Both the position numbers and the translations under genes were made by a program. A stretch of 39,005 bases of DNA from Candidatus Nitrosopumilus sp. (GTDB lineage Archaea; Thermoproteota; Nitrososphaeria; Nitrososphaerales; Nitrosopumilaceae). The stretch is from the NCBI GenBank assembly GCA_018263505.1, contig JAANXA010000051.1:1-39005 (forward strand), given 5' to 3'. This document shows positions 498-36,762 of this stretch, in pieces; the stretch's first letter is position 1, and every line of letters starts with the position of its first letter. Under the pieces are notes generated by a model. It did not search any database. It was not told the origin of the DNA and saw nothing but the letters and a program-made list of their open reading frames with translations.

Positions 498-620
498 AAA
501 TGAAACAAGTAAATTGGTTCAATAAAAAGAGTTTTTTCAAAAAAATAACATCAAGATCATATAGATGACAAAAAAATCAGACCAAATCAAATAAAATAGT
601 AGAGAAATTATTCAGATTTT

Positions 621-1016: not shown

Positions 1017-1063
1017 TACTACACTGAAATATCATATTATTTAAGAAATTCAAAAAAATAGAT

Positions 1064-1933
1064 TTACAAGTCTCGAAATTTTACTAGATTGTAAAAATAA
1101 GAAGCATTATTTTGGATAGTTCCTTTTTTTGGAATTTTTTGCAGTCCAATGTTTTTAGAATCAAGTGCAGCTTGTGCAGCACCGCCTGCAAAACATAGAG
1201 CCCACAAAAAGTCTTTTTCTTTTAACATGGTACAACAAAATGCCGAACAAAAAATATCACCAATTCCAGTGGTGTCATGAATTTGTTTGTTGGGTAATGT
1301 GATGGAATAAATTTTGTCTTTTACTAAAAGAGATACTTTAGTTTTGTTTGTCAAGATAACATATTCCACTCCTTTTTTCTGTAATGCAACCATCATTTCA
1401 TCATGAGTGCCTGTAACAATTTTTTCTGCTTCTTCAGGATTTACTTTGATTGCATTTACATCAGATAAATCAAGATCTGTATTTTCTAAAAATACATTAT
1501 TTTGAGAGTCTTTCTGTCTTAAGAAACCTTGAGGATCAATGAATAAAAAATTTGAATCTTTTTTTATATTTTTTAGAGTTTCAGAATCAATTTCATGGAA
1601 AATAGGACTAACAAGATGGCCATCAGCGTTAACATCTGAATAATCTATAGGATCACATTCATTTTCAAGTTTTAGAGTTCTATTAGAACCAGTTATGGAT
1701 ATAGCAAATTTTGTAGTGTCTTTTTGAGATTCAGAATTTATGAAATTTATTTTATTTTCTATAAAGTATTGTTTTGGAAAGTTTGGGCCAAATTTTGTAA
1801 ATAAATCAACATCAAACTTGAACTGCCTGGCAGTAATTCCACAATAACATGCAGAACCACCAATTTGTTCATAGTTTGTATCATTAATGGTAATGGTATC
1901 AACTGCACAATGAGCCGCTATTGCTAATTTCAT
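1064..1933 (-). CDS. PfkB/ribokinase-family carbohydrate or nucleoside kinase
   Basis: A 289-residue protein of the PfkB superfamily, normal length for the family. It shows the N-terminal 'IGGSACYCGITARQF' substrate-lid region (about residues 24-38), the 'NPEEAE' segment (165-170) found before the ATP site in many members, and the C-terminal PfkB signature D220-TTGIGD-225, where the final Asp is the catalytic base. These enzymes phosphorylate sugars, nucleosides or related alcohols with ATP. Archaeal members include nucleoside kinases and ADP-ribose-like sugar kinases, and the sequence alone does not settle the substrate. The ATG at 1933 is preceded by an AT-rich 'ctattatattt' stretch. Neighbours (CBS protein, zinc mini-protein) do not indicate a pathway. 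Confidence 0.82.
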   Translation of the reverse strand: MKLAIAAHCAVDTITINDTNYEQIGGSACYCGITARQFKFDVDLFTKFGPNFPKQYFIENKINFINSESQKDTTKFAISITGSNRTLKLENECDPIDYSDVNADGHLVSPIFHEIDSETLKNIKKDSNFLFIDPQGFLRQKDSQNNVFLENTDLDLSDVNAIKVNPEEAEKIVTGTHDEMMVALQKKGVEYVILTNKTKVSLLVKDKIYSITLPNKQIHDTTGIGDIFCSAFCCTMLKEKDFLWALCFAGGAAQAALDSKNIGLQKIPKKGTIQNNASYFYNLVKFRDL

Positions 1934-1959
1934 TTCTATTAATTCAAAATATAATAGAT

Positions 1960-2064
1960 TTAGTCATTTGCTTTTTTCTCCATACAAGATTTACAAACAA
2001 TATTGCCTTTAGAGGGATAGACCTCAACTCCTGAAGAGAAACAAATATGGCATAAACCACGCAT
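1960..2064 (-). CDS. 34-residue zinc-ribbon-like mini-protein
   Basis: A short minus-strand frame with an ATG at 2064 and a TAA at 1960-1962. The protein starts MRGLCHICFSSGVEVYPSKG and has C5-x2-C8 and C24-x2-C27, the spacing of a minimal zinc ribbon or treble clef. The four cysteines in a 34-residue frame, with Gly/Pro in the turn between the pairs, make chance unlikely. It lies 26 nt upstream of the pfkB start on the same strand, so it may be the first gene of the pfkB/CBS transcript. Function unknown; archaeal zinc micro-proteins have been linked to regulation and stress, but nothing here proves that. Confidence 0.6.
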   Translation of the reverse strand: MRGLCHICFSSGVEVYPSKGNIVCKSCMEKKAND

Positions 2065-2178
2065 AGTTAATCACTTAAAATTAGACGATCTAGAATTAAA
2101 AGATGTGTAAATTTTTAAGAAAAATTAGGCACGAATGTAAGGGTTATTTGTAAGAATGTAGTTCAAGAAACTATCTAG

Positions 2179-2191
2179 TGATAAATTATCA
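2179..2191. repeat. Short 6-1-6 inverted repeat downstream of tfb
   Basis: TGATAA-A-TTATCA is a perfect 6-base inverted repeat around one central base, lying between the tfb stop and the zinc mini-protein start. It could be an operator half-site pair or chance in AT-rich DNA. No T-run follows that would make it a clear terminator. Confidence 0.25.
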
Positions 2192-2233
2192 ATAACAAAC
2201 CATCAAAGGTTCCACTCCACGTTCATTTTGAAA

Positions 2234-3130
2234 CTAAATATGTCTCCTGAGAGGTTTAGACCTGTTTCTGATAGTCACAGGAGTAACATTTGCAGCTTTT
2301 GCCATATCATCTTGAGAGATCATTTCATTATTTTTAATACATGATAGGTATAATGCTGCAGCAGCTAATCCCATTGGTTCTTTTCCAGATAATTCGTGTT
2401 CTTTTTCAGCTTTTTTTAGAATTTTTGCTGCATGTCGTTTAGTTTTTTCAGATACATCAACATTGCTTGCAATTTTTGAAATACAAGATACAATATCTAT
2501 TACAGGCATTTTTAATTCCAATTCTCTAAAGATTAATCTGTAACTTGCAGAGATTTCTTTTCTTTTTACCCCGGTACATTCTGCAACTTCTTTTAGGGTT
2601 CTTGGAGTTTCAGATTCTCTACATGCAGCATAAAGGGATGAGGCCATTAATGCAGAAATGGAGCGTCCTCTAATTAGTCCTTTTTCCAAAGCTTTTCTGT
2701 AAATGTATGCAGCTTTTTCAGATACTGCTTCAGGTAATGCTAATTTTTCTTTAATCTTTAGTAATTCTGATAATGCTTGTTGTAAATTTCTGTCATTGTT
2801 ATTTTTGATACGACTTCTACTATCGTGTTTTCTTAATCGACTAAGAGTGGATTTCATAGATATTGATATTGGATTTCCAGCAGAGTCTTTGTTGATTGGA
2901 CTAATCATAGTGCTAAGACCATGATCATGACGTGTTAACGAAGTTTTATCACCTGTACGGGATTTGTTCGGGTTAGAATCAGAAAATATTCTTTCAGGAC
3001 TAGCATCTGAAATTTTTTCAGGTATTACAAATCCACATTTTGAACAAAATATTTCTCCAGAGTCTACATCTGTTACTAGAGACTTTTTTCCACATCTAAT
3101 ACATTTTAAATTATTTTGTTGTAAACTCAT
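2234..3130 (-). CDS. tfb: Transcription initiation factor B (TFB)
   Basis: A 298-residue archaeal TFIIB homologue. The N-terminal zinc ribbon is CIRCG...FCSKCGFVIPEK (about residues 10-40), followed by the B-reader/linker region and two cyclin-like repeats (about residues 105-200 and 205-298, with 'GRSISALMASSLYAACRESETPRTLKEVA' and 'GLAAAALYLSCIKNNEMISQDDMAKAANVTPVTIRNR'). It binds TBP-TATA complexes and the BRE element and recruits RNA polymerase to promoters. Archaea of this phylum usually carry several TFB paralogues, so this may be one of a set with its own promoter preference. The ATG start is clear; a T/A-rich box lies about 20 nt upstream. It is followed 170 nt downstream by the zinc mini-protein gene, with a small inverted repeat in between. 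Confidence 0.95.
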   Translation of the reverse strand: MSLQQNNLKCIRCGKKSLVTDVDSGEIFCSKCGFVIPEKISDASPERIFSDSNPNKSRTGDKTSLTRHDHGLSTMISPINKDSAGNPISISMKSTLSRLRKHDSRSRIKNNNDRNLQQALSELLKIKEKLALPEAVSEKAAYIYRKALEKGLIRGRSISALMASSLYAACRESETPRTLKEVAECTGVKRKEISASYRLIFRELELKMPVIDIVSCISKIASNVDVSEKTKRHAAKILKKAEKEHELSGKEPMGLAAAALYLSCIKNNEMISQDDMAKAANVTPVTIRNRSKPLRRHI

Positions 3131-3146
3131 TGTATCAATAAAAATA

Positions 3147-4028
3147 TTATTTCAAATTATTTGCAACATGGTTTCCCATGATCTTAGACATTGTAATTAG
3201 TTGAGGTTCAAGTTTCTTTGGACTTGCAACATAAAAGTCAGCATAAAAATGTCCATCATCTTCATATTTTTTTGTGTCAATACCTTTACTGTCTAACAGA
3301 GAAAGGGTTTGATGATACTCACCATCATCTGAGAATTGTCTTTGAGGGATCGGTTCAATATCACTATTAATCAAAGAATAACCATAGCAATCAAAAGTTT
3401 TTTTGATTTCTTCCATATCAAACATTCTCAAAACAGAAAATGCAAAGATAGGGGTAATGTTTTGGGGTTCAGAAATAGACGAATATGCCTTTTGATTTTT
3501 AATTACTTCAAAAAGATTTGAAAATGCCTTGTATCCGATATACCCAATACATCCAGTAGCTATTATCAGATCTACATCAGGTAATTCTTTTGCAAGTTTA
3601 GAATTATCGGTTTCAAGATTTATACATATTCCTTTTTCACACAAACCAGAATTTTCTGAGAATACAAGAGCTGGGTTTGAAATATCTATTTGATAAAAGT
3701 TCAGATGATCGTTTTGTGATTGTTTCTCAAAGAATTGTTTTGTTTGTGTAATGGATGGTTCGTCTTTTGCTAAAAAGAAATCATCAAGTTCTGACATTAC
3801 TAAATCATGTTTCATTAATGCAGAATTAATTCCATAAGAACTTCCAATATCTAAAACATTAATTGGTCTTTGCAGTTTTTCATAAAGTTGTTCTGCAAGA
3901 GATAGATACAATGGTTTTGTATGATCTGCAATTCTATATTGTAAAATTTGCATTTCTTTCAAATACGAATATGGAGTTTTTTGTGTGTAGATGTTTGTAA
4001 AATCTTTTTTCACTTTTAATTCATCCAT
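3147..4028 (-). CDS. Class I SAM-dependent methyltransferase-like protein
   Basis: A 293-residue protein with a recognisable SAM-binding motif I, VLDIGSSYGINSAL, at about residues 58-71, followed by an acidic strand end. 'PDVDLIIATGCIGYIG' in the middle looks like motif IV. The N-terminal 50 residues are helical and Tyr-rich; the C-terminal part ('RQFSDDGEYHQTLSLLDSKG...HFYADFYVASPK') resembles the accessory strands of small-molecule methyltransferases. Substrate unknown. The gene is monocistronic in appearance, with a TATA box (4056-4061) about 30 nt upstream of the ATG, and ends 16 nt before the tfb start on the same strand. It could instead be a SAM-binding protein without methylation activity. 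Confidence 0.7.
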   Translation of the reverse strand: MDELKVKKDFTNIYTQKTPYSYLKEMQILQYRIADHTKPLYLSLAEQLYEKLQRPINVLDIGSSYGINSALMKHDLVMSELDDFFLAKDEPSITQTKQFFEKQSQNDHLNFYQIDISNPALVFSENSGLCEKGICINLETDNSKLAKELPDVDLIIATGCIGYIGYKAFSNLFEVIKNQKAYSSISEPQNITPIFAFSVLRMFDMEEIKKTFDCYGYSLINSDIEPIPQRQFSDDGEYHQTLSLLDSKGIDTKKYEDDGHFYADFYVASPKKLEPQLITMSKIMGNHVANNLK

Positions 4029-4053
4029 GTTGGAGTAAAGTTCTCATACCACC

Positions 4054-4062
4054 TCTTATAAG
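4054..4062 (-). promoter_or_regulatory. TATA box of the methyltransferase gene
   Basis: The minus strand reads cTTATAAgag; the box centre is about 30 nt upstream of the ATG at 4028, consistent with a leaderless or nearly leaderless transcript. Confidence 0.5.
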
Positions 4063-4436
4063 ACTTTGATTAATAATTTGGGCATAATAATGACACTTGA
4101 TGTTATAAACAAACTTTGTAAGAGTAATGTAATTGATTCAGTGCAGATGAAGATGAGTATGAATTTATCGCTCTTTGTTGCTAATCATTTTATGTTTTAA
4201 TTTAGGACTCTTGACTCACAGACCAATAGCCATTTTGCAAGTATTGGTTTGAATCGTAAGAGGTTTGAACCGTGTTTGGAAATAATGTGTGATTCAAAAT
4301 AAGAAATTCAGTAATTTTTTTTAGAACAATTTTTGTTGAAAATAATCATAGATCAGCATAATCACACCTAAACTTTGTATATGTAGTGGTTCCCAAAGTC
4401 CACCAAGAATATAAGTAGGTAGGAGAGGGTACTTTC
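4063..4436. other. Gene-poor stretch with a hairpin and an interrupted short frame
   Basis: The longest stretch here without a confident gene. Two things are visible. On the plus strand a frame opens with an ATG at 4090, runs 36 codons to a TAA near 4200 and continues in the same frame for 33 codons to a second stop just past 4300; this could be a dead gene or chance. Within it, CAGACCAATA (4219-4228) pairs with TATTGGTTTG (4242-4251) as a 10-base-pair stem (one G-U) with a 13-base loop. An AT-rich 'gattaataattt' at 4067-4078 could be a promoter for a small RNA. No tRNA: the 'ggtttgaatc' near 4246 lacks the invariant C of a T-loop and there is no acceptor stem. Confidence 0.3.
4408..4415 (+). 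promoter_or_regulatory. TATA box of eS26
   Basis: AATATAAG is centred 25.5 nt upstream of the ATG at 4437, ideal for a leaderless ribosomal protein mRNA. A second TATA-like 'tttgtatatg' at about 4374-4383 could be an upstream promoter. Confidence 0.6.
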
Positions 4437-4724
4437 ATGCCACTTAAACGTGCAAGTAGAGGTCGTACAAAAGGAGGAAAAGGGTCTTCAGGTGTTGTAC
4501 AATGTACAAACTGTGGACAAACAGTTCCTAAAGACAAGGCAAAAAAAGTCACATCCAAATTAAATTTGGTTGAGCACACTTTGGCAAAAGAATTGCGTGC
4601 ACAAGGTGCATACATTGCATCACCAACAGTTCTAAAACATTACTGTATTTCATGTGCAATCCATTTCAAAATTCTTAAAATCAGATCAGCAGATAACAGA
4701 AGAAAACGTGGAAAACTTCGTTAG
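4437..4724 (+). CDS. rps26e: 30S ribosomal protein eS26
   Basis: A 95-residue basic protein of the eS26 family, a small-subunit protein of eukaryotes and some archaea located near the mRNA exit region. The diagnostic N-terminus (PLKRASRGRTKGGKGSSG), the zinc site C23-TN-C26 ... C70-IS-C73, and the Arg/Lys-rich tail are all present. Length is normal. The ATG at 4437 is supported by a TATA box 25.5 nt upstream. It is convergent with the downstream phosphatidyltransferase gene; their stop codons overlap within the four bases TTAG (4721-4724). Identification is secure. Confidence 0.95.
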   Translation: MPLKRASRGRTKGGKGSSGVVQCTNCGQTVPKDKAKKVTSKLNLVEHTLAKELRAQGAYIASPTVLKHYCISCAIHFKILKIRSADNRRKRGKLR

Positions 4725-5296
4725 TCTTCTTTGATATTTTTTGTAGTTACAATCATTCTTTGAATAAGTGTAATTCCTGCAATTATCACAACTATGATTA
4801 CTGCATAGTCCATAAATCCAATTATTCCAATTATTGCAATTACCAATAGTCGTTCTGCACGTTCTCCAATTCCAATTCCTTGTAATTTCACATTGATGAT
4901 GTCAGATTTTGCTCTTGCATAACTTACCAGTAATGATAAAGTGATTGCAAGAAATACCAAATAAGGGTCAGCATATCCACCAATTAAAATTCCTAAAAAT
5001 ATTGCAACTTCAGCAATTTTGTCAAACATTGAATCAAGGTAAGAACCCTTTTTGGAAGTTTTCCCAGTGACACGTGCAACTTGACCGTCTACCATATCAA
5101 AAAAACCTGAAACCAATAGGAGTATACCACCAATAATTAATCCAAATTCAATACCCAAACCATAGATAATTGCAGACAGCAATGCAAATCCAAGACCCAC
5201 CGATGTCCAAAAGTTTGGAGACAATCCAGTTGCAGCAAAACCTTTGCCCATTTTTTCAAGAGCAGGCTTTAAGGTATCTCGGAGATTATTAAGCAC
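4721..5296 (-). CDS. CDP-alcohol phosphatidyltransferase family membrane enzyme
   Basis: A 191-residue integral membrane enzyme with a perfect family motif: D67-x2-D70-G71-x2-A74-R75-x8-G84-x3-D88-x3-D92, the Mg-binding catalytic centre. About five to six hydrophobic helices follow the family topology. It transfers a polar head group alcohol onto a CDP-activated lipid. In archaea the likely product class is an archaetidyl-polyol such as archaetidylinositol phosphate; the exact alcohol is not readable. The start is a GTG (5294-5296) followed by an amphipathic N-terminus. No lipid-synthesis genes adjoin it. The stop overlaps that of eS26 by four bases tail-to-tail. Confidence 0.88.
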   Translation of the reverse strand: MLNNLRDTLKPALEKMGKGFAATGLSPNFWTSVGLGFALLSAIIYGLGIEFGLIIGGILLLVSGFFDMVDGQVARVTGKTSKKGSYLDSMFDKIAEVAIFLGILIGGYADPYLVFLAITLSLLVSYARAKSDIINVKLQGIGIGERAERLLVIAIIGIIGFMDYAVIIVVIIAGITLIQRMIVTTKNIKED

Positions 5297-5459
5297 AAGA
5301 TATTTTTCAAATTACTACTAATAAAGTGAACAGATAGAATTACATCATAAATTCAGAAAAAGGTAAAAAATTAGAATTCAACAAAGAGAAACTTCAATAT
5401 CTTTAAGTTCAAATTTTTAAAAAAACTTCATGTATGACACCAGATAGGAAATGTAAAAA

Positions 5460-5932
5460 GTGACTAAGGATAATTCAATTAGAAATATTCTAGTCCCATA
5501 TGATGATTCAAAATTTGCAAAAAAAGCATTAGCATATGCAAAAGGGATTGCAAAAGAAGAAGACACAAAAATATTTTTGCTCAATGTAGTAGATGAGCAT
5601 AATATCTTCATGGAGCAATTTTAGCAGAATTGGAAGATGATTACAAAGTAAGGGATACAATTCACAGATTTATCAAATCAGAAGTAATGAATGAAAAGAA
5701 AAAACTAGTAAAAGTGGCACATGTCAATGAAAGTAAAAAAAATAAAATTCATCATCATGTGATTAAAGGAAATCCAATTGAGGCAATTTTAGAGTATTCC
5801 AGAGCAAAGAAAATTGATTTGATAATTATTGGGAGTCAGGGATTAAAAGGAATTGAAAAACTCAAAGTATTAGGAAGTACAAGTAGAAGAGTTTCAGAGT
5901 TGGCAAAATGTCCAGTAATGATAGCTCATTGA
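5460..5932 (+). pseudogene. Universal stress protein (UspA family), interrupted by one frameshift
   Basis: Two frames together make one complete UspA domain. The first starts at a GTG (5460) and reads NILVPYDDSKFAKKALAYAK...FLLNVVDEHNIF, then hits a TAG at 5622-5624. The second frame is open from about 5609 and continues HGAILAELEDDYKVRDTIHRF to the ATP-binding signature GSQGLKGIEKLKVLGS and ...VMIAH, ending 5930-5932. One extra base at about 5606-5610 would restore a single chain of normal USP length (about 157 residues). Everything else is intact, including the ATP loop, so this is either a very recent mutation or a sequencing error; no obvious slippery heptamer is present for programmed frameshifting. 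Family members bind ATP and help with stress survival. Confidence 0.85.
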
Positions 5933-5952
5933 AAAATATGAAAATATTTAAT

Positions 5953-6825
5953 TTAGTTTTGAGATAGATTCATGGCAATTAAAGTAGACATAATTTTTGC
6001 AGCAAGTGACGCAGTTGCACCATTATCATGATATGGGTTTAATTCAACAATATCAACTCCCGTTACTTTAGTTTCATTTAATGACGAAATCATATCAAAT
6101 AACTCACGAGAAGTAATACCTACTGCCTCAGGATTTCCCACACCAGGTGCAAATGCAGGATCTAATACATCAAGATCAAAACTAGAGTATATCGAATCAA
6201 AAGAAGAGACATGCTCACGTAGTAGTTTAGGACCATCACCATCACGAATTTCTTTGTCAGTGATTGTTTTGATGTTATGTTCTTGTAAAAATTCTAATTC
6301 TTCTGCAACAAATGCACGTGCTCCAACATGTAAAATATTATCAGAACCACGTTCTTCAACAATTCTTCTCAGATACGACGCATGGCTGAGTTTAATGTCA
6401 GCAAATTCATCTCTCAAGTCATAATGAGCATCAAACACAACATAGCCTGTTTCTTTTGGAAAGCTAAGATATGTTCCATAGGTAATGGAATGCTCACCGC
6501 CTAAAATGAAAAGTTGTTTTTGTTTTGCAACCAATTCAGTTGTAATTTTTTTCACCATATCAATCATTTCAGAGGCAACAACGGTATGACGAGTGTTTCC
6601 CAAATCTTCAATATTTGCAGTTTCTAAATCCACTTTGAGTTGAGGGTGAAAAACCTCAATATTGTTAAATGAATCACGAATGGCATCAGCCCCAAATCTA
6701 CATCCTGGTTTGTAAGAGTGTGTTGCATCAAAAGGGATGCCAAATACGGTGGCAACAGGATCTGAACCATCATCTGATGAAGTGATTAAGGGATTTTTGT
6801 TCATGTAAAGATCAAGAAAACTCAT
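5953..6825 (-). CDS. speB: Agmatinase / arginase-family ureohydrolase
   Basis: A 290-residue ureohydrolase with all six Mn ligands visible: H112 in GGEH, D132, H134 and D136 in FDAHYD, D217 and D219 in SFDLDVLDPAFAPG. The family releases urea from agmatine, arginine or related guanidino compounds; archaeal members close to this length are usually agmatinases making putrescine or acting on aminopropyl-agmatine. The GVGNPE segment after the last motif matches agmatinase rather than arginase. It lies 4 nt downstream of thrS on the same strand, so probably shares its transcript. A deoxyhypusine synthase-like gene lies 3 kb away. Family certain, substrate probable. Confidence 0.9.
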   Translation of the reverse strand: MSFLDLYMNKNPLITSSDDGSDPVATVFGIPFDATHSYKPGCRFGADAIRDSFNNIEVFHPQLKVDLETANIEDLGNTRHTVVASEMIDMVKKITTELVAKQKQLFILGGEHSITYGTYLSFPKETGYVVFDAHYDLRDEFADIKLSHASYLRRIVEERGSDNILHVGARAFVAEELEFLQEHNIKTITDKEIRDGDGPKLLREHVSSFDSIYSSFDLDVLDPAFAPGVGNPEAVGITSRELFDMISSLNETKVTGVDIVELNPYHDNGATASLAAKIMSTLIAMNLSQN

Positions 6826-6829
6826 AAGA

Positions 6830-8692
6830 TTACACCATAAGTTGTGGTCTTTTAGATAAGTGTCTAGGCATATTCAAACCAGTGAAGGGTTTTCCTTTTG
6901 TTTGATTACTAATTTCAGTCAAGAAATCATCAAAGGATATATCTTTAACATTTCCTGTTTGTCTGTCTCGAACACTTAGATTCTCAGAATTTGTTTCTTT
7001 TTCACCAATTACCAAAATATACTGAATCCATTCTTTTTCTGCTTCACGAATTCTTTTGCCAATACTTTCATTTCGGTCATCAATGTCTACACGGATATTG
7101 TTTGCAGATAATTTATCAGTTAATTTTTCACAAAAGTCATAAAATTCCTCATTTAGTGGAATAATTCTGATTTGTGTTGGTGCAAGCCATAATGGAAGTT
7201 GTGCTTTTCGTCCTTCTTTGGAGTCTTTAGCAGCTTTTTCTAATAATGCATACATTATTCTTTCAATTGCACCACTAGGAGAATTGTGTAGAATAATCGG
7301 ATGTTGTGCATTATTATTTTCATCAATAAATTCAATTCCATATCTATTGCCATTTTCAACATCAATTTGATCAGTAGATAATGCAGAAGCCTTACCCAAA
7401 TTATCGATAAAATTAAACTCCCATTTCAAAACAAAATAGAAAAACTTTTCCTTCCACATCTCAACAAGAACAGGTCTTCCATGTTTTTTTACTAATTCTT
7501 CAATAGATGATTTATTTTCATTGTAAAAGTCCTCGGTAAATCTAATTGCCATTTCATAATCAGATTCTTTGATTCCTAATTCACGTAATACATTTTGAGA
7601 CAAATCAAATCTAACTTTGATTTCATCTACAGCCTGAGGAATATCTTTACAAAATGCATGACAGTCTGGCATAGTAAATGCTCTAAGACGACGTAACCCT
7701 ACTAATTCACCAGATTGTTCTCTACGAAAACTATACCTTGTTAGTTCATAGAGTTTGTAAGGTAAGTTTTTGTAAGATAGTTGGAAATGATTTGCCATTA
7801 AAAATTGTCCAAAACAAGCTGCAAATCGCAAAAATAATTTCTTTCCTTCTGAATCAATATTGTATTGTCTTGCAGGAAATCGATTAAAGTAACTAACCAT
7901 ACTTGGATGTTCTGAATCATACATGATTGGAGTTTCAACTTCATATCCACCATAGTCTTTTACTCTATCAGTTACATATCGCTCAATCAAAGATTTGATG
8001 AGTCTACCATTTGGGAAAAATCTCATGTTGCCTGAATCTGATGCAGGTTCATAATCTGCAATTCCCAATTTTTTCATCAATGCTACATGTGGTGGGGGTT
8101 GATCAACTGCACGACTTTTAGCAGATTCATATTTTGCTAAAATTTCTAATTTTTTATTATTTGTAAAATCAAAATCACCAATGTTAGTCAAAGTTCCATC
8201 AGGAGACAATATTTTCCAGTAAGAGCGAATTGTAGACTCACCTTTTAGAGCATCAGAAGTAATTTCTGAATCACTTGATTCAGAGTCTTTTGTAACAACT
8301 TTTGAGCTCTCTGCTAATGGGTGACCTTTTACTTGAAGTTTGTAAGATTTAGTCCAACCAAATGGAGAATGAGATACTTCAAGTTCTGATGCTCCAGATT
8401 CCATTTCTTTTAGTAAAGATATGGCAGTAGATGGTTTTGCCAAATTTGAACTAAGGTGAGCATATGGGTATAGTAGTAATTTTTTACATCCAATTTTTTC
8501 CATCGAGTTTTTTATTTGAGAAATGGCATTTTGTGCAACAGATGAATCATCACCATCTTCAATGGCAACAAAAACAACTACAAGTTCTTCAAGTCTTTGA
8601 GTTTGCGGATTTTCAATATCTTCAGCAGACTTGATCTCTTTTTTTGTCGGAGTGTATTCAATACTATCACAATGTAGTTGGAGTATTCGCAT
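6830..8692 (-). CDS. thrS: Threonyl-tRNA synthetase, archaeal type
   Basis: About 620 residues. It charges tRNA-Thr. The N-terminal 140 residues form the archaeal D-aminoacyl-tRNA-deacylase-like editing domain (starts MRILQLHCDSIEY; 'KKLLLYPYAHLSSNLAKPS'). The class II core follows, with motif 2 around YSFRREQSGELVGLRRLRAFTMPDCHAF and motif 3 in NSPSGAIERIMYALLE. The C-terminal anticodon-binding domain ends at about residue 610. I choose the ATG at 8692, not one 15 nt upstream: MRILQLH is the usual archaeal N-terminus and a TATA-like box sits about 25 nt before it. Part of a likely two-gene transcript with agmatinase (4 nt gap). Confidence 0.96.
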   Translation of the reverse strand: MRILQLHCDSIEYTPTKKEIKSAEDIENPQTQRLEELVVVFVAIEDGDDSSVAQNAISQIKNSMEKIGCKKLLLYPYAHLSSNLAKPSTAISLLKEMESGASELEVSHSPFGWTKSYKLQVKGHPLAESSKVVTKDSESSDSEITSDALKGESTIRSYWKILSPDGTLTNIGDFDFTNNKKLEILAKYESAKSRAVDQPPPHVALMKKLGIADYEPASDSGNMRFFPNGRLIKSLIERYVTDRVKDYGGYEVETPIMYDSEHPSMVSYFNRFPARQYNIDSEGKKLFLRFAACFGQFLMANHFQLSYKNLPYKLYELTRYSFRREQSGELVGLRRLRAFTMPDCHAFCKDIPQAVDEIKVRFDLSQNVLRELGIKESDYEMAIRFTEDFYNENKSSIEELVKKHGRPVLVEMWKEKFFYFVLKWEFNFIDNLGKASALSTDQIDVENGNRYGIEFIDENNNAQHPIILHNSPSGAIERIMYALLEKAAKDSKEGRKAQLPLWLAPTQIRIIPLNEEFYDFCEKLTDKLSANNIRVDIDDRNESIGKRIREAEKEWIQYILVIGEKETNSENLSVRDRQTGNVKDISFDDFLTEISNQTKGKPFTGLNMPRHLSKRPQLMV

Positions 8693-8713
8693 ATGTACAC
8701 GCCACATAGTTTT

Positions 8714-8721
8714 ACTTATGA
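8714..8721 (-). promoter_or_regulatory. TATA-like box of thrS
   Basis: The minus strand reads TCATAAGTAAAA, centred about 25-26 nt upstream of the ATG at 8692. It supports that start over the upstream in-frame ATG at 8707. Confidence 0.45.
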
Positions 8722-8797
8722 ACTATTAGTTTAGAATTATTGTGAGAAAATAACTAGTCTGAAAAGCCTTAAGTTAAGAAATTAATTACAAATTTTA

Positions 8798-9241
8798 ATG
8801 AATAAAAATACACTTCTGGGAATAGTGATTATTAGTTGTATAGGAGTAGTTTTTGCAATAGTTGCAAATAATGATTCAGAAACAACTGAAAATGGAATAT
8901 CAGAAGAGAACGAGGAATTCAAGTCAGACAAAATGATAATGGATGGATTACAATTACAATATGATGAAATTATAAAATATTCATGTATGGAGGCAAAGCC
9001 TCAATCTTATTTTGAAGTGAAATTAGATGAAAAAATTCTTGAGGTCGAACACAGATTGAGATATTTATCTGAACAACAAGTAGAGATTGAAAATATTAAA
9101 AATCAAGTAGTAATGTTAAATGAAAAGTATTTTGATTCTGAAAATCAGGAATTTTCATTATTTGAATGGGAATGTGTAAATCAAAAATTTTGGATTGATG
9201 AATATCCACATTTACAAGATATTTTAGAAAATAAAAAATAA
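8798..9241 (+). CDS. Small membrane-anchored or secreted protein, function unknown
   Basis: A 147-residue protein with one N-terminal hydrophobic segment (about residues 4-23, LLGIVIISCIGVVFAIVANN) after two lysine/asparagine-rich residues, typical of a signal anchor or Sec signal. The rest is acidic and predicted helical ('LEVEHRLRYLSEQQVEIENIKNQVVMLNEKYF' looks like a coiled coil), facing outside the cell. Two cysteines (in 'YSCMEAKP' and 'FEWECVNQKF') could form a disulphide. It stands alone, divergent from thrS. I do not recognise the family. Confidence 0.65.
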   Translation: MNKNTLLGIVIISCIGVVFAIVANNDSETTENGISEENEEFKSDKMIMDGLQLQYDEIIKYSCMEAKPQSYFEVKLDEKILEVEHRLRYLSEQQVEIENIKNQVVMLNEKYFDSENQEFSLFEWECVNQKFWIDEYPHLQDILENKK

Positions 9242-9264
9242 CAATATCAAAAAATAAAAAAAAT

Positions 9265-9597
9265 CTATTTTGCTCCACGTAATGAAATAACTGAACGTAA
9301 AATCAAACCAGAAATTCCAAGATTAGACATTAGAAATGCCGCAGTTCGACTAAGAGAGTTTTCACCGCGAAATCCCTCATCATAAATCATTTCAACATTT
9401 CCTTTATCAGTTTTAACAAAAGAAGTTATCAAAGAATAATCACCTAATTTTTTATCGGTTCTTTCATGATAGTGTCGAAGCTCTACATGAAATATTTTAA
9501 ACTCATCTTGTACAAATGAACCTGAAGAAAATAAAATTTTGACATCGTCAGGAGTTCGATTTACTCGTTGTGGATCATGTAAATCAATAATATCCAT
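9265..9597 (-). CDS. Conserved-looking small protein, function unknown
   Basis: A 110-residue soluble protein beginning MDIIDLHDPQRVNRTPDDVK. A longer form from an ATG at 9618 (seven extra residues) is possible, but a TATA-like TAATTAAA (9622-9629) is about 28 nt upstream of 9597 and would lie almost on top of 9618. The middle, 'EFKIFHVELRHYHERTDKKLGDYSLITSFVK', has alternating hydrophobic strands like a small beta domain, and the C-terminus 'SRTAAFLMSNLGISGLILRSVISLRGAK' is hydrophobic. It is divergent from the deoxyhypusine synthase-like gene. No family recognised. Confidence 0.65.
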   Translation of the reverse strand: MDIIDLHDPQRVNRTPDDVKILFSSGSFVQDEFKIFHVELRHYHERTDKKLGDYSLITSFVKTDKGNVEMIYDEGFRGENSLSRTAAFLMSNLGISGLILRSVISLRGAK

Positions 9598-9666
9598 ATG
9601 ATATCGAATTTGTATCATTCCTAATTAAAGAATATTTTATTTTACATGATCAAATTAGTACGCAAG

Positions 9667-9674
9667 TATTATTT
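9667..9674 (+). promoter_or_regulatory. TATA box of the deoxyhypusine synthase-like gene
   Basis: TATTATTT is centred 26.5 nt upstream of a GTG at 9697, supporting that start rather than the ATG at 9646, which would place this box inside the coding sequence. Confidence 0.45.
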
Positions 9675-9696
9675 ACGACAAAAAATTATTTTTTGT

Positions 9697-10791
9697 GTGG
9701 ACCCGCACAAGTTTCATGGTAAAGATATTCCACACATAAAATTAGACGAAAATATGACTATTGAAGAATTAGTCAATGTATTTGCAAGTACAGGGTTTAA
9801 TGGTAGACAATTAGGCGAAGCTGCAAAATTATATGCAAATATGATTGAAGAGAATGCAACAATTTGTCTTACAGTTTCAGGAGCTTTAACACCAGTTGGG
9901 TTTGGGGGAATTATCAAGACATTGATTGAGAGGGGTTTTGTTGATTGGATTATTACTACGGGGGCAAACGTGTATCATGAAGATCATTTTGCGTGGGGAT
10001 TACCGGTGAAACAAGGAAGTTTCAATGTAGATGATATGAAACTATATGAAAATGAAATTGTGAGAATTAGAGACATTTACATTAAATTTTACGAAACATT
10101 AGAAGCAGAAGATCAAGTGATTCAGAAAATGTTCGGAGAAGATTTTCCAAATACATCATTTACGACAGCAGAGTTTTGTAATGTAATGGGTAAAATGAGT
10201 AAAGAGCATTCAAAGTATCCAGAAAAAAGTTTTATTACTACGGCATATGATTTTGATGTTCCAGTATATGTGTCGACAATAAAAGATTCATCACTTGCAC
10301 TAAACTTGGCAGTTCATAGATTGGCAGGGAAGACATACAATTTAGATTTTGTAAGAGAAATAATAGAACAAGCTGCAATTCTTTATGGTTCTGAAAAATC
10401 AGGAATTTTAGAATTGGGAGGAGGAGTACCAAAAAATACAGCTCAGCAGACAGGGCCATTATTGGATCAAATTTTAAGAAGAAATGATGGGGGACAAGAC
10501 TATGTTATACAGATAACAGATGCAAGGCCAGATACAGGAGGATTATCAGGTGCAACACTTCAAGAAGGAAAGAGTTGGGGTAAAGTTCAAGATGCACATC
10601 ACGGAATGGTCACAGTCTATGCCGATGCAACTATTGCATTTCCAATCCTTGCACTATACGTTCTAAGTAATCAAAAAACAAGAAAACCTAAAAGACTGTA
10701 CAAAAAACTTGGAAAATTATATGATGATCTTAAAGAAGATTATTTTAAAAATCCGGCAAACAAAATTAAAAAATCAAAAATGAAGAACTAA
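9697..10791 (+). CDS. dys: Deoxyhypusine synthase-like protein
   Basis: A 364-residue member of the deoxyhypusine synthase family, which uses NAD and a polyamine to modify a lysine of initiation factor 5A. The fold signatures are clear: 'ICLTVSGALTPVGFGGIIKTLIERGFVDWIITTGANVYHED', then 'LELGGGVPKNTAQQ', 'DARPDTGGLSGATLQEGKSWGKV' and 'VYADATIAFPIL'. The SWGK lysine corresponds to the covalent-intermediate lysine (Lys329 in human). The histidine that acts as base in the human enzyme (GGGVVKHH) is Asn here (GGGVPKN). The substrate could therefore be spermidine, agmatine or another amine. I start at GTG 9697 because of a TATA box 26.5 nt upstream; an ATG at 9646 is the alternative. Its stop overlaps the convergent zinc protein by four bases. 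Confidence 0.85.
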   Translation: MDPHKFHGKDIPHIKLDENMTIEELVNVFASTGFNGRQLGEAAKLYANMIEENATICLTVSGALTPVGFGGIIKTLIERGFVDWIITTGANVYHEDHFAWGLPVKQGSFNVDDMKLYENEIVRIRDIYIKFYETLEAEDQVIQKMFGEDFPNTSFTTAEFCNVMGKMSKEHSKYPEKSFITTAYDFDVPVYVSTIKDSSLALNLAVHRLAGKTYNLDFVREIIEQAAILYGSEKSGILELGGGVPKNTAQQTGPLLDQILRRNDGGQDYVIQITDARPDTGGLSGATLQEGKSWGKVQDAHHGMVTVYADATIAFPILALYVLSNQKTRKPKRLYKKLGKLYDDLKEDYFKNPANKIKKSKMKN

Positions 10792-11000
10792 AACTTGTCA
10801 AATCTGGCACGTTCAAGGTCTCGATCATCTTTTGATTCCTTTTTGTATTCTTTGTAATGTTCTTTGCATAGAACAGATTTTTTTCCAGTTGCAGAAACTC
10901 TCAGACCTGCATTTTCAACTTTTGAGGTGTTTAATGAACGTGCACCATCTTGATCACAGTTCTCAACATTGCATTTTGCACCTTTTGAAATTATTCCCAT
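10788..11000 (-). CDS. 70-residue zinc-site protein, function unknown
   Basis: A small basic protein starting MGIISKGAKCNVENCDQDGA. Potential zinc ligands are C10, C15, C45 and H48 (CNVENC ... LCKEHY), a treble-clef-like spacing. The tail 'KEYKKESKDDRDLERARFDKF' is highly charged. A TATA box (11024-11031) is centred 27.5 nt upstream of the ATG, so it is expressed from its own leaderless promoter, divergent from eS25. The last four bases are shared with the stop of the deoxyhypusine synthase-like gene. Probably nucleic-acid or ribosome associated, but that is inference. Confidence 0.75.
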   Translation of the reverse strand: MGIISKGAKCNVENCDQDGARSLNTSKVENAGLRVSATGKKSVLCKEHYKEYKKESKDDRDLERARFDKF

Positions 11001-31828: not shown

Positions 31829-32236
31829 CTAGGGCTGTGAATAAATCACATGTGGAGTTGGTTTGTCAAGTTCATGAATTTCAGTTTTTAATTGGACATG
31901 ACCAAAATCCAAATGATCAATTTCTAATACTATTGGATGAATTTCCCAACCATATTTTGGAGTTTGAGAGAATGGAACCAATTCAATAAACTCTGAACCA
32001 ACATATGATTTTTGAAAGGAATCATCCATTCCAAGAATTTCCATCACAACACCAGTGGTTTTTCCAGATTTATCAAGAAAAGTAATTTCTACATTTCCTG
32101 TAGGATAGTATGTGGCATCAATTTGAAATGTTTGACGAAACTCTTTGTGATCATCAGTTGCACCACCAGTTAGAAAAACTAATGCAAAGATTGTAATGAG
32201 TCCAAGGGAGATTGCTGGAAGAATTTTTTTAGCCAT
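31829..32236 (-). CDS. Secreted or membrane-anchored protein, function unknown
   Basis: 135 residues from ATG 32236, MAKKILPAISLGLITIFALV. Two lysines and a hydrophobic stretch (about residues 5-25) form a Sec signal or membrane anchor. The rest looks like a beta-sandwich ('FRQTFQIDATYYPTGNVEITFLDKSGKTTGVVMEIL...YGWEIHPIVLEIDHLDFGHVQLKTEIHEL'), probably outside the membrane. The start lies within the last 8 bases of the aminopeptidase gene, so the two are translationally coupled. No family recognised. Confidence 0.7.
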   Translation of the reverse strand: MAKKILPAISLGLITIFALVFLTGGATDDHKEFRQTFQIDATYYPTGNVEITFLDKSGKTTGVVMEILGMDDSFQKSYVGSEFIELVPFSQTPKYGWEIHPIVLEIDHLDFGHVQLKTEIHELDKPTPHVIYSQP

Positions 32237-34730
32237 TTTGGGCAAAGTCTTTTTTCATTTTTCTTAAGAGTTTAGAGTAAATTCTAATTTTTTCCAAAGT
32301 TTGAGTTTGTGTTCTTTCAGTTCCAGGAGTAGGGTTTTTCTTGAAAAATGCCTTAATGTCAGACTCCATCGAATCATCAGCCACCAAAGTAATACTTGCA
32401 ACAATTCTATTAAAAAGTGGATTTCCATATCCAACTTTTTTACTCATCTTTGTCCAATTCTTTTTCATCCATGGCCACAAGATTTTCTTGCCATATGGAT
32501 TTGCAGCAATTCTCATAATTGGTAATTGCATATTTTGAGAGCGGACTTCAGGTGTTTGAGAGAATTGTAATGTTTTTAGTAATAATTTCTCATCACGGAA
32601 GCTACACATTGCACCCAAGAAGCGTAATTTTTCTTCCATAGTTTTTGCTTTTTTATACAATTTAACAAAAAGAGAATGTGTTTTTACATTTCCATTCCAT
32701 GCAACTAAAGAAAAAATAGATTCTCTAACATCAGGATGCAAAGTAGAAGGATTTTTCAAAAATGCTTTGAATTTAATTTCTGCTTGTTCAATAATTGATT
32801 CATCACCAAGTTTACCTAGAACAAAAATAGAAAATCCTCTCAGAAATGCATCAGTATGTTTGTCTGATTTTTTTGGAATCCAACCAAGATTTGACAAAAT
32901 TTTTCTAAAGTAGTTAATAGTGTATTCGCGAATCTCATCTCCAAAGTCTTCAAAGAAAGTCAAAGAGGACAAAAAGTTTAGATTATTTGCAACATTTGTT
33001 TGTGCAAGATACGAGTCCTCATCAAAATATGCATCAGTAAAATCCAAATAATTTGAAACTTCTTCTTTTCCTGCAACACATAAAGCAAATAGATCATTTT
33101 GAATTGCCCATCTATCAACATGAGGGATTTGTTTTTGATCAACGAGCATTTTTAGATCAAGTAAAATTCCATCATCATATTTTACACGATAAAATCCAGT
33201 TCTTCCAATATTTGCAACAAATCCAGGACTAGATGGAATTTTTAGTTTGGTCGATTTTTTAGTAAGCAATTTTGTTGTAGTTTCATTTCCCAATCCCAAA
33301 GTTATCGGAACATTCCATAGACCTTTCTGAGTTTTTGCAGTAGGCTCCATCAAAAAGCGACTTTGTTTTAATTCAAGAGAGGTGTTATTTTGAGTAATTT
33401 CAATTTGAGGAAAGCCAGGTTGTTTTAACCAAGAATTGACCATTGCAGACACAGGCATTTTTGATGCTTTTCCAATTGCATCCCACAAATCTTGTCCTGC
33501 AGCATTTCCATACTTGAATGAAGAGAGATATTTTTTGAGCCCTGCTCTAAAGTTTGTTTCACCAACATAATTTTCAAGCATTCTCAAAACACAACCACCC
33601 TTATCATATGAAATTGCATCAAAAATTTCTCGAATTTCTGCAGGAGAATTTACAGTGACATCAATCGGATGAGTGGTTTTAAGAGAATCCAGGCCCATTG
33701 CAGTATTCATTGCATCTTCAATGAATTGATCCCACAAATTCCATTCAGGATAAAACTTGTCAACAAACTTTGTTGCCATGAATGTTGCAAATGACTCATT
33801 GAGCCACAAGTCATTCCACCACTTCATAGTAACTAAATTACCAAACCACTGATGTGCGATTTCATGAGAAATTACTTCGGCAATGAATTGTTTAGTTCTA
33901 GTTGAAGAAGTCTTGGGGTCATAAAGTAAAATAGTTTCTCTAAATGTTATGGCACCCCAATTTTCCATAGCACCTGCTGCAAAATCAGGAATTGCAATCA
34001 AATCTAATTTAGGTAAAGGGTATTTTATTCCAAAGTATTTTTCATAAGATGTTAAGAGTTTTTTCCCTAAATCCAAAGAGTATTTTCCTTTGGATTTATT
34101 TCCCTTGGTAGTAACTACACGAATTTGGACTTTACCTGTTTTTCCTGCAAGATATTCAAATTCACCTACTCCAAGATAAATCAAATATGTAGACATAACA
34201 GGTGTTTTATCAAATTTGTATAGTGTTTTGTTTTTGATTTTTTTCTTTGAGATTACAGGCATGTTAGAAATTGCAGAAAATTTCTTATCAGCAATAATTG
34301 AGATTTCAAATGTTGCTTTTGCCTCAGGTTCATCCCAACATGGAAATGCACGTCTAGCATCTGCTGCTTCAAATTGAGTGGTAGCCAAGTATTTGGTTTT
34401 TCCATTTTGCTTGTATTGACTACGATAAAATCCCAATAATCGGTCATTTAGAATTCCTTGAAATTCCAAGGAGATGATTGCATCACCTTTAATTTTTTGA
34501 GATAATTTTATGGTTAGTTCTTCTTTTTTCTCATCAGTTTTTGGAACAGATGAAATTGTTTTATTTCCATATTGTACAGTACAGGATTTAATTTTTAGTT
34601 CAGCACAATGCATGGTTATTTTATTTGTAGATTTTTTACAAGAAACTGTAATTTGTTCAGTTCCAAAAAATGTGAATTTTTTTAGATCAGGTTCAAAAGT
34701 TAATGTATAGTTTATTGGTACAGTTTCCAC
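32229..34730 (-). CDS. M1-family zinc aminopeptidase
   Basis: 833 residues, starting at GTG 34730 (METVPINYTLTFEPDLKKFT). The zinc site is H289-EIA-H293-QWFGNL...WLNE312-S, with the GAMEN exopeptidase motif (GAMENWGAITF) about 35 residues earlier. N-terminal saddle domain, catalytic domain and a long helical C-terminal domain fit the archaeal tricorn-interacting-factor / PepN group. It removes N-terminal amino acids from peptides in the cytoplasm, finishing proteasome products. The small secreted-protein gene overlaps its 3' end. The upstream region to argS contains two palindromes and a weak TATA-like element about 26 nt before the GTG. Confidence 0.96.
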   Translation of the reverse strand: METVPINYTLTFEPDLKKFTFFGTEQITVSCKKSTNKITMHCAELKIKSCTVQYGNKTISSVPKTDEKKEELTIKLSQKIKGDAIISLEFQGILNDRLLGFYRSQYKQNGKTKYLATTQFEAADARRAFPCWDEPEAKATFEISIIADKKFSAISNMPVISKKKIKNKTLYKFDKTPVMSTYLIYLGVGEFEYLAGKTGKVQIRVVTTKGNKSKGKYSLDLGKKLLTSYEKYFGIKYPLPKLDLIAIPDFAAGAMENWGAITFRETILLYDPKTSSTRTKQFIAEVISHEIAHQWFGNLVTMKWWNDLWLNESFATFMATKFVDKFYPEWNLWDQFIEDAMNTAMGLDSLKTTHPIDVTVNSPAEIREIFDAISYDKGGCVLRMLENYVGETNFRAGLKKYLSSFKYGNAAGQDLWDAIGKASKMPVSAMVNSWLKQPGFPQIEITQNNTSLELKQSRFLMEPTAKTQKGLWNVPITLGLGNETTTKLLTKKSTKLKIPSSPGFVANIGRTGFYRVKYDDGILLDLKMLVDQKQIPHVDRWAIQNDLFALCVAGKEEVSNYLDFTDAYFDEDSYLAQTNVANNLNFLSSLTFFEDFGDEIREYTINYFRKILSNLGWIPKKSDKHTDAFLRGFSIFVLGKLGDESIIEQAEIKFKAFLKNPSTLHPDVRESIFSLVAWNGNVKTHSLFVKLYKKAKTMEEKLRFLGAMCSFRDEKLLLKTLQFSQTPEVRSQNMQLPIMRIAANPYGKKILWPWMKKNWTKMSKKVGYGNPLFNRIVASITLVADDSMESDIKAFFKKNPTPGTERTQTQTLEKIRIYSKLLRKMKKDFAQNG

Positions 34731-34808
34731 ATTTTTGATAATTTTGATACGCTTTAAGTAGTTTTTATTAAAGCAAGAATTTCAAATGTTCATTGGTTTG
34801 CACGCCAT

Positions 34809-34841
34809 GATATCAATTGAGTTTAAACTCAATTAGATATC
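34809..34841. repeat. Long palindrome between argS and the M1 aminopeptidase gene
   Basis: The core AATTGAGTTTAAACTCAATT (34815-34834) is a perfect 20-base palindrome. It is flanked by GATATC (34809-34814) and, after one extra A, GATATC (34836-34841), so arms extend to 16 bases with a single bulge. As DNA it is a dimeric-protein binding site candidate; as RNA it could make a long stem. It abuts the next hairpin directly. Confidence 0.6.
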
Positions 34842-34872
34842 CCTGAAGAGATGATAACATTGTCTCTTCAGG
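34842..34872 (-). terminator. 10-base-pair hairpin immediately after argS
   Basis: CCTGAAGAGA (34842-34851) and TCTCTTCAGG (34863-34872) pair perfectly around an 11-base loop. The hairpin starts 3 nt after the argS stop on the minus strand, a transcription-end or mRNA-protecting position. No T-run follows on the minus strand; instead the adjoining palindrome begins. Confidence 0.5.
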
Positions 34873-34875
34873 ACA

Positions 34876-36762
34876 TTACATTTTTTCAGGGGCAGTAATC
34901 CCAATCAAATCAAGGGCACGTTCTATAGTCATCTTAAAAGAATTAACAAGACATAATCTAGAATTCTCCAGATTCTCATCACCAATTCCTAAAACTTTAT
35001 TGTGTTCATAAAAAGAATTGAAAGAAACTGCAAGATCATAACAATAACGTGCAATAACTTTAGGAGATAAATTATTTGCAGAGTCCTTTACTGCAATTCC
35101 AAATAATCCAATTGTTTTAACTAAATCAAGTTCTGATTTTTCAGACAACATAGAATAATTAACATCAATAGAAGGAGTTCGTCCAGATTTTTCTAATATT
35201 CTGGACGCTCTTGCATGAGTATATTGAATATATGGTGCAGTGTCACCTTCCAAGCTTAAGGATTTTGTTAAATCAAAAGTGATTATTTTGTCAAGATCAT
35301 ATTTTATCATTTCATATCGAAGGGTTCCAACTGCAACATTATGTGCAATATCCCCAATTTCTTCAGAATTCATTTCAGGATGTCTCTTAGATGTTTCTTG
35401 AATTGTTTTTTCTTTAAGTAAATCATAAACAGAGTCTGCACTAACGTAGAGGCCTTTTCTTCCAGACATCTGAGTTTGTTTCCCTTCAGTTTCCAATCCC
35501 AAAGTCTTTGCAGTATCAGAACTCAAAGTAACAGATTCATAACCCAAATGGACATACGCATCCTCAACGGATTTGAATTTTGCCATTAAATCAGTAATGA
35601 TTTTTTGTAATCTTGCCTGTCTTGAATCAATTACAGTAATTACTTTTTGACCAGTGAAATCATTCTCAGAAGAATCAGAATCATTCAATGTTGTCTGCCA
35701 TAATTTTTGGTCATTTGGTTGAGATATAGGATATTTTTCATAATGAAACGGATCATCAAGTAAGCCTAACTTCCAGGCAGCATATGGAATATCTTTTGCA
35801 ATGTATGTTGCAGTTCCATTGCTTCTAACAATTACTTTATCCTCTTCTTTTCCATCTCCACGAATCACCCAACAACCAGTATTTTTACCATCATTTTCAA
35901 ATTCTACCAATTTCATCTCTTTTAATTTCTCAAAAATTTCACTCCATAATCCAGAACGAATAATTTGTGATTCAAAATTCAGACAATCATAAGTTACAGA
36001 AAGATTCCAACAAGTTTCAAGTTGATTAGCAAGAACTTTTCTAGTAATTACATCAGCAAATTTTGCAGTTTCAGATGAACCATCTTCTAATTCTTTTAAG
36101 ATGTTTTTACGAATATCTTCTAATGATGGATCTTCTTCATATTTCTGAGTGGTCTTAACATAGACATCATCACCACAATAATGATCAAACTTTTTACCGT
36201 TTGGAGGCTCTTGATCAAAATTAAAATGAGTAAATCCAACTAAAATATCAGCTACCTGTAAACCAGAATCATCAATGTAGTTTAGAACATTTACTTTGTA
36301 ATCGGCTTTTTTTAAAATTCTAGAAATACAATCCCCAATGATTATATTTCTAACATGACCAATATGTAATGCCTTATTTGGATTAACACTGGTGTGTTCA
36401 ACTACAATTGTAGACTGTTTTCCAAGTTCTACAAAACCAAAGGTATCAAGATTAGATTCTGATAAAATTAACTGAGATAGTTGATTCCAGTTTGCAAAAA
36501 AGTTAACGTATCCTGAAGGGTGTGGTTCTGATTTTAAAACCAAAGTATGAATATTTTTATTGTAATTCTCAGAGATGATCTGTGCAATTTGCTGTGGGCT
36601 TTTTTTGAGTTGTTTTGCAAGTAGATATGAAATATTGGAACTGACATCACCAAAACCAGGTTTTGCAGGTTCAACTGAAAAAGATATATCAGAAATAGAT
36701 AATTCAGATAAAACTTTATTCAAATTATTTCTTATTTCATCAAGAATTGATTGAAAAGTCAT
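34876..36762 (-). CDS. argS: Arginyl-tRNA synthetase
   Basis: 628 residues, MTFQSILDEIRNNLNKVLSE start. Order: N-terminal Add-1 tRNA D-loop-binding domain (about 1-110), class I Rossmann core with the HIGH motif HIGH-VRN in 'NPNKALHIGHVRNIIIGDC', the MSGRKG region ('TQMSGRKGLYVSADSVYDLL', standing for KMSKS), and the DALR anticodon-binding domain ('YIQYTHARASRILEKSG...CYDLAVSFNSFYEHNKVLG'). It charges tRNA-Arg. It starts 1 nt after the HAD phosphatase gene on the same strand and ends just before a strong hairpin. Confidence 0.96.
   Translation of the reverse strand: MTFQSILDEIRNNLNKVLSELSISDISFSVEPAKPGFGDVSSNISYLLAKQLKKSPQQIAQIISENYNKNIHTLVLKSEPHPSGYVNFFANWNQLSQLILSESNLDTFGFVELGKQSTIVVEHTSVNPNKALHIGHVRNIIIGDCISRILKKADYKVNVLNYIDDSGLQVADILVGFTHFNFDQEPPNGKKFDHYCGDDVYVKTTQKYEEDPSLEDIRKNILKELEDGSSETAKFADVITRKVLANQLETCWNLSVTYDCLNFESQIIRSGLWSEIFEKLKEMKLVEFENDGKNTGCWVIRGDGKEEDKVIVRSNGTATYIAKDIPYAAWKLGLLDDPFHYEKYPISQPNDQKLWQTTLNDSDSSENDFTGQKVITVIDSRQARLQKIITDLMAKFKSVEDAYVHLGYESVTLSSDTAKTLGLETEGKQTQMSGRKGLYVSADSVYDLLKEKTIQETSKRHPEMNSEEIGDIAHNVAVGTLRYEMIKYDLDKIITFDLTKSLSLEGDTAPYIQYTHARASRILEKSGRTPSIDVNYSMLSEKSELDLVKTIGLFGIAVKDSANNLSPKVIARYCYDLAVSFNSFYEHNKVLGIGDENLENSRLCLVNSFKMTIERALDLIGITAPEKM

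Follow-up and report, generated by a model that had tools for sequence, protein, structure and literature searches.

A conserved candidate small RNA gene behind argS in Nitrosopumilus that probably doubles as an attachment site of integrative elements

Ammonia-oxidising archaea rank with the ocean's most abundant cells, and we know of few regulatory RNAs or gene-exchange sites that have been defined in them. The locus described here raises the question of what two abutting hairpins are doing between argS, the arginyl-tRNA synthetase gene (34876..36762, − strand, located by the argS search), and a putative M1 aminopeptidase gene (32229..34730, − strand) in a Candidatus Nitrosopumilus genome of 1.37 Mb in 68 contigs. 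“The window” is used below for the whole stretch of 39,005 nucleotides that was analysed, and coordinates refer to it unless another contig is named. A first-pass annotation, from which the name of the aminopeptidase gene is taken, had considered a terminator or mRNA 3'-end protection for argS, an operator for the aminopeptidase gene, a small RNA, and the remnant of a short palindromic repeat element; had conservation and other copies been lacking, it would have taken the hairpins for chance or a local remnant.

A three-hairpin element behind argS

The two inverted repeats fill 34809-34872, exactly where the first-pass annotation had put them, and its description of both is accurate. H2 (34809..34841, + strand) contains a perfect 20-base palindrome at 34815-34834, extended by GATATC arms with a 1-nt bulge to 33 bases in all, and reads GATATC-AATTGAGTTTAAACTCAATT-A-GATATC on the + strand. 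H3 (34842..34872, + strand) has perfect 10-bp arms at 34842-34851 and 34863-34872 around an 11-nt loop and lies 3 nt past the stop codon of argS, which occupies 34876-34878 on the − strand. The two hairpins are far beyond chance. Folded as + strand RNA, the region 34789-34883 has a minimum free energy (MFE) of −35.5 kcal/mol (z −7.1) that none of 200 dinucleotide shuffles equals, and the same region folded as the − strand gives z −5.2.

These hairpins are two parts of a three-hairpin element, the remaining part of which had been overlooked. A 17-nt box at 34792..34808 (+ strand), ATTGGTTTGCACGCCA(A/T), adjoins the palindrome, is near-invariant in relatives and forms a third small hairpin, H1; the copy in the window has CCAT instead of CCAA. 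As a separate observation, an alternative fold would pair one arm of H3 with the final codons of argS (34841-34853 with 34879-34891), a complementarity that, judged by eye, is apparently not kept in the argS ends of relatives.

Conservation and distribution

The argS gene was searched in 60 genomes of the genus and matched in 55; 30 of the loci, among them that of the window, were read. An element of this kind lies directly behind the argS stop in 21 of these 30, counting the window and requiring an exact 12-nt core of the box. At these loci the stop is abutted by a hairpin (usually TAATGTCC), which is usually followed by another one, and then comes the box TTGGCGTGCAAACCAAT. Hairpin sequences vary among them and the pairing is kept, in an alignment that leaves out the 9 of 30 loci without the exact core. 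The closest argS, that of G005 with 89% identity, has no element behind it.

The first structure model (model R1) finds matches in 47 of 95 genomes of the genus and one clear copy in the window's own genome, and model R2 finds matches in 89 of 250 genomes of the family. The box with at most one mismatch is present in 105 of 250 family genomes, where a reversed-pattern control matches 1 of 250. In a class-wide sample it occurs in 99 of 400 genomes, all of them Nitrosopumilaceae, and in none of 179 genomes from other families of the class. A single-contig, 98%-complete genome (G006) has neither a box nor a match to model R2, and the element is therefore not universal. Scanning genome contigs for an exact 19-mer returned 48 stretches, of which 47 stand under archaeal titles; we judge the 48th, on JAJDDX010000194.1 (titled Phycisphaerae bacterium), to be an archaeal contaminant contig. 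This contig carries a full Nitrosopumilus-type element, promoter signal and hairpins included. Three exact box matches in viral contigs, none of which showed the promoter signal or hairpins by eye, were judged to be chance and set aside.

According to what lies upstream of the box in argS orientation, we grouped the elements into class I, class I without the middle hairpin, class II, class g and class III. Class I occurs at argS and in a few other places, class II is 96-98 nt long and nearly gap-free, class g is the form in Nitrosarchaeum and other genera, and class III is weakly structured (mean antisense z −1.9), with many copies that have no promoter signal. Copies of the same structure away from argS include L048, L049, L050 and a Nitrosarchaeum copy beside another gene. 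The box is common to all classes and the TGTC start is mostly shared in classes I and II; with copies in several classes having these parts in common, we regard the element as an independent unit rather than part of argS.

Compensatory changes and the folding strand

Covariation was scored in two alignments. The first, A2, consists of 16 class I rows, from which the copies with a longer H2 (L048 and L050) were dropped, as well as class I copies missed by the row selection (L049 among them), and to which L007 was added by hand. The second, A3, consists of 13 class II rows, with L071 dropped. In the + strand orientation A2 has 31 pairs, 94.5% of cells paired and double changes in 12 of the 31 pairs, among them 7 of 14 pairs changed on both sides in H2 and 5 of 12 in H3; its covariation score exceeds all 500 shuffles and all slid versions. 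A3 has 34 pairs, 99.1% paired, with 33 double-change cells and 0 of 500 shuffles as high, although 2 of 5 shuffle measures are unremarkable (68/500 for pairs with a double change, 308/500 for pair types); in both alignments the sequences are related, and neither cells nor counts stand for independent events. The covariance analysis that had been proposed as a check thus supports the hairpins in two sequence classes, I and II, and the possibility of a chance or local remnant is not borne out, the element being conserved with compensatory changes across the genus.

The mismatches within the stems indicate which strand folds. Stem mismatches were scored symmetrically, with 42 distinct sequences from the 44 class I rows. 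In argS-strand stems the counts of A-C against G-U are 90:17 in class I (n = 42), 40:3 in class II (n = 14), 18:4 in class g (n = 14) and 64:24 in class III, where shuffled sequences have ratios of 1.2, 2.0, 1.1 and 1.4, respectively. Because an A-C on one strand is a G-U on the other, the conserved fold belongs to the + strand of the window, opposite argS. The MFE is also lower antisense to argS, in 37 of 42 (class I), 14 of 14 (class II), 12 of 14 (class g) and 37 of 51 (class III) sequences. H3 of class II is mostly C(UUCG)G, a UUCG loop closed by C-G. Model R1 had been built for a 3'-UTR RNA on the argS strand; it found relatives, and the A-C excess then showed that strand to be the wrong one.

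A promoter-like signal upstream of the box

When 119 distinct copies are aligned on the box, a BRE/TATA-like peak appears at −40 to −26, and positions −3 to −1 read GTA (G 43%, T 70%, A 75%), about 25 nt from the TATA centre. Such a TATA-to-start spacing is typical of archaeal promoters. A TATA-like word at −34..−22, roughly 30 nt upstream of the box, is found in 31 of 41 class I copies, 13 of 14 class II copies and 35 of 64 others; for the same three groups, control windows contain it in 1, 0 and 0 copies upstream and in 1, 0 and 13 copies downstream. The candidate promoter in the window (AAGTAG plus TTTTTATT, 34752..34769, + strand, −40..−23 from the box) is a weaker match than the consensus, and relatives carry AAACCAAACATTTATG or AAAGTAAGGTTTATTG at the aligned position. 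The putative transcription start region, 34789..34791 on the + strand, is TTC here and GTA in most relatives. At the other end, the predicted 3' tail ACATTACATTTTTT (34873..34886, + strand) runs antisense across the argS stop codon and would contain the 3' end of the RNA; a GACATTA tail follows H3 at argS and likewise at loci away from argS.

From these features we infer transcription and the exact ends, and an RNA is predicted from 34789 to about 34880 on the + strand. Its predicted counterpart in genome G061, of about 70 nt, lies at 628064-628132 on the − strand. The conserved structure, the strand bias and the promoter signal make the element a candidate for an RNA gene used as an attachment (att) site, and it is probably a transcribed small RNA gene of ammonia-oxidising archaea. 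Among the earlier suggestions the small RNA is the one that gained support, albeit on the strand opposite argS and with a longer extent than had been noted. Rfam has no match above threshold in the window (the best sub-threshold match in the window region has E 0.65), none at E up to 1 at nine loci, and at eight loci only two chance-like matches (E 0.34 and 0.42).

The box as a putative attachment site

Comparison of relatives suggests that the box is an attachment site where mobile islands insert. The ORF of a tyrosine recombinase begins 47-50 nt downstream of the box (argS orientation) in seven genomes; it is long or intact in G118 (441 aa), G053 (398 aa), G066 and G086, and broken or truncated in G074, G022 and G043. 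N-terminal integrase fragments stand beside the box in G009, G045, G087 and G089. The G118 protein matches PF00589 with E 8.2e-8, above the curated cutoff, and the G053 protein matches only PF13102, below its cutoff. In both intact integrases the tyrosine recombinase motif, with R, HxxR, H and Y residues, can be made out by eye. With 33 and 25 bits, recomb_XerA_Arch, the best NCBIfam model, stays below its cutoff of 220, so that no family was assigned, and a PDB search with the integrase returned nothing below E 0.5. Across 250 genomes, each of the five top-scoring integrase relatives has a box next to it.

A second box in the same orientation closes the island in each of the seven islands examined, which measure 5.7 kb (G043), 6.1 kb (G083), 7.9 kb (G022), 10.4 kb (G074), 15.7 kb (G118), 16.7 kb (G072) and 20.5 kb (G053); an integrase match by the box is absent in G083 and G072. 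The island ends are direct repeats with an identical run through the box of 16 nt in G074, 20 nt in G022 and 21 nt in G118. Those of G053 share the entire box and beyond, and in G043, G083 and G072 one box of the pair carries a single mismatch. One box pair, in G106, is only 0.86 kb apart. The island of G074, at 511-10941 of locus L160, holds many uncharacterised ORFs between its two boxes.

Empty and occupied versions of the same site can be compared. G020 and G054 have the empty order argS, box and right-flank genes R1 and R2, and in G043, G072, G074 and G083 the order is argS, box, island, box, R1 and R2. A second chromosomal locus is empty at L092, L093, L096 and L169 and occupied at L170. 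The left arm of the empty site in G020 scores 96% to the attL of G072 versus 40% to its attR, the right arm 84% to attR versus 56% to attL, and the switch falls in the box. The other empty/occupied comparisons (G083, G043 and G074) point in the same direction less sharply than that of G020 with G072, with less clean right arms at 0.59 vs 0.63 for G083 and 0.65 vs 0.68 for G043 against G054.

In the window itself there is no integrase match beside the box and no second box, every other match needing 5 mismatches, and nothing there matches the right-flank genes R1-R4; its genome has two distant integrase relatives elsewhere. For the window copy we therefore favour an unoccupied site, or else a rearranged one, with one RNA gene; the aminopeptidase gene, from the neighbourhood comparison, would be a neighbour by rearrangement that is incidental to the element.

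A small RNA gene as an integration site, and the alternatives

The conserved structure and strand, the promoter-like signal, the island boundaries, the empty and occupied sites and the adjacency of the integrase together favour one reading, which we regard as likely: a small RNA gene is used as att site by elements that carry their own version of the RNA gene. The gene would be about 85-95 nt long, on the + strand of the window and convergent with argS, with an archaeal-type promoter, and its RNA would consist of three directly stacked hairpins (H1 in the 5' box, H2 and H3) and a GACAUUA tail that extends over the stop codon of argS. As DNA, the 5' box, with TTGG and CCAA arms and an 8-nt centre, would be the core att site for a clade of tyrosine-recombinase integrative elements that bring their own RNA-gene version next to the integrase gene. 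Crossover would occur within the box, presumably in the 8-nt centre that these two arms enclose, and would yield one product with the resident hairpins and the element's promoter and another with the element's hairpins and the resident promoter. Integration would thereby leave an RNA gene at each island end, much as it does at tRNA genes. That the recombinase is active, that promoters and RNA bodies change partners and that the RNA has a function in the cell are proposals. The RNA may serve the host, since class I keeps its structure and promoter signal without an island, or it may serve the element, and the invariance of the box could be due to its use as a recombination core rather than to RNA function.

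A sub-version compatible with this reading is that the RNA gene is selfish, the RNA belonging to the mobile element, where it might for example control integrase expression or maintenance, and the chromosomal copies being remnants of past integrations. Class II and III copies at island ends, the use of two chromosomal loci in different genera and the back-to-back arrangement of the RNA promoter signal and the integrase start all fit a selfish RNA, but at island-free sites class I retains its structure and promoter signal across species whose argS genes are 74-83% identical. This points to long-term selection in which the element has no part, and we find this sub-version unlikely. It is unlikely, too, that the H2/H3 RNA or its folded DNA strand is an active part of the recombination system, with the recombinase or its regulation depending on the hairpins. 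If this were true, the locus would represent an archaeal gene-capture platform with an RNA gene at every site and a swap of promoter and RNA body at each integration, distinct from integrons and from tRNA-gene islands. A folded single-stranded DNA recombination site like the attC of integrons, in which the recombinase recognises the hairpins and there is no RNA, would explain why hairpins accompany the box both at the ends of elements and at chromosomal sites, why one strand is favoured, as in attC, and why extra boxes downstream of argS share their orientation. We consider it quite unlikely in the face of a promoter-like signal conserved at the right spacing, many G-U pairs, an RNA-type loop in the C(UUCG)G of class II, a box core that forms only its own small hairpin outside the H2 and H3 stems, and islands that hold several genes instead of one-gene cassettes. 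A plain DNA att site without an RNA had also been entertained and was rejected on the promoter and wobble evidence. CRISPR-, dif- and attC-type sites were weighed as well and not adopted.

The idea of a 3'-untranslated structure or terminator of the argS mRNA, behind which mobile elements insert by happenstance, draws on the fact that the element begins right at the stop of argS in most of the Nitrosopumilus loci read (21 of 30). This idea, and with it the proposed argS terminator or mRNA 3'-end protection, is very improbable given that the best-folding, wobble-tolerant strand is the antisense one, that copies of the same structure exist away from argS, and that the argS strand has no T-run (GATATC follows H3 and ATGGCG follows H2). 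The first-pass remark that a T-run terminator does not explain the hairpins is correct for that strand; on the + strand a T6 run at 34881-34886 starts 9 nt past the second hairpin. The 145-nt gap, with a perfect palindrome able to bind a dimeric regulator, could be imagined to hold an operator or other regulatory site for the M1 aminopeptidase gene. The aminopeptidase gene is beside argS in this genome only, however, and none of the other 29 argS loci read has it in the flank (up to 1.5 kb, some contigs being shorter), while the element stays with argS or the box. An operator, or a chance or local remnant, which has the compensatory changes against it, is hardly conceivable as the explanation.

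Relation to known integration systems

RNA genes are well known as integration sites, and in bacteria tmRNA and small-RNA genes serve as att sites as well. Passages of PMC8371274 describe tRNA and other RNA genes as att sites of tyrosine-recombinase elements, with archaeal cases. The element resembles the sites in those passages: a short identical core lies within what is probably an RNA gene, the island has a direct repeat on either side and an integrase near one end, and the gene is apparently restored after integration. Unlike at tRNA-gene att sites, the predicted RNA here is not a tRNA and belongs to no Rfam family at threshold, and crossover would fall at the 5' end of the RNA, with promoter and body swapped between resident and element. 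The integrated elements of Thaumarchaeota treated in passages of PMC6563490 are similar in their thaumarchaeal hosts, tyrosine-recombinase integrases, short att sites and multi-gene islands; the targets named there are tRNA genes, protein genes and intergenic regions. The words ‘arginyl’ and ‘tRNA synthetase’ are absent from the main text of PMC6563490, and a case at this site may nevertheless have been published. Among the open-access passages searched, none describes this RNA, nor argS as a thaumarchaeal integration site.

The attC sites of integrons, archaeal ones included (passages of PMC9668308), likewise have hairpins beside a tyrosine recombinase site, one structurally conserved strand and serial sites in the same orientation. 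Unlike these integrons, the present system has many-gene islands, a core outside the main stems and a promoter-like signal at the site, and an IntI-type integrase is not among the assignments made here. The boxes do not delimit arrays of one-gene cassettes, being spaced 5.7-20.5 kb apart with several to many ORFs between them in the seven islands. The locus yields a candidate structured RNA family outside Rfam, with a searchable model and predicted ends and promoter, as well as a hot spot for genomic islands, together with the recombinase and core site that belong to it.

Weakly structured boxes elsewhere

Further copies in the window's own genome, which the first-pass annotation had raised, amount to one good copy and one weak second box. 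The latter (L116, L172; G000 C38:3680-3696) is a class III box with one mismatch on a 6.2 kb contig and is possibly a displaced island end. Other class III boxes (L117-L122 and L141, at G062 C1:1136230, 1451648, 1459585 and 1472819, G061 C1:1215118 and 1540530, and G002 C15:19397) often have no promoter signal, and several share a CTACCATTTTGGG..AAATGG..GCAGAC-like stretch past the box. They adjoin varied genes, one of them biotin synthase-like by eye, and may be the ends of another mobile element.
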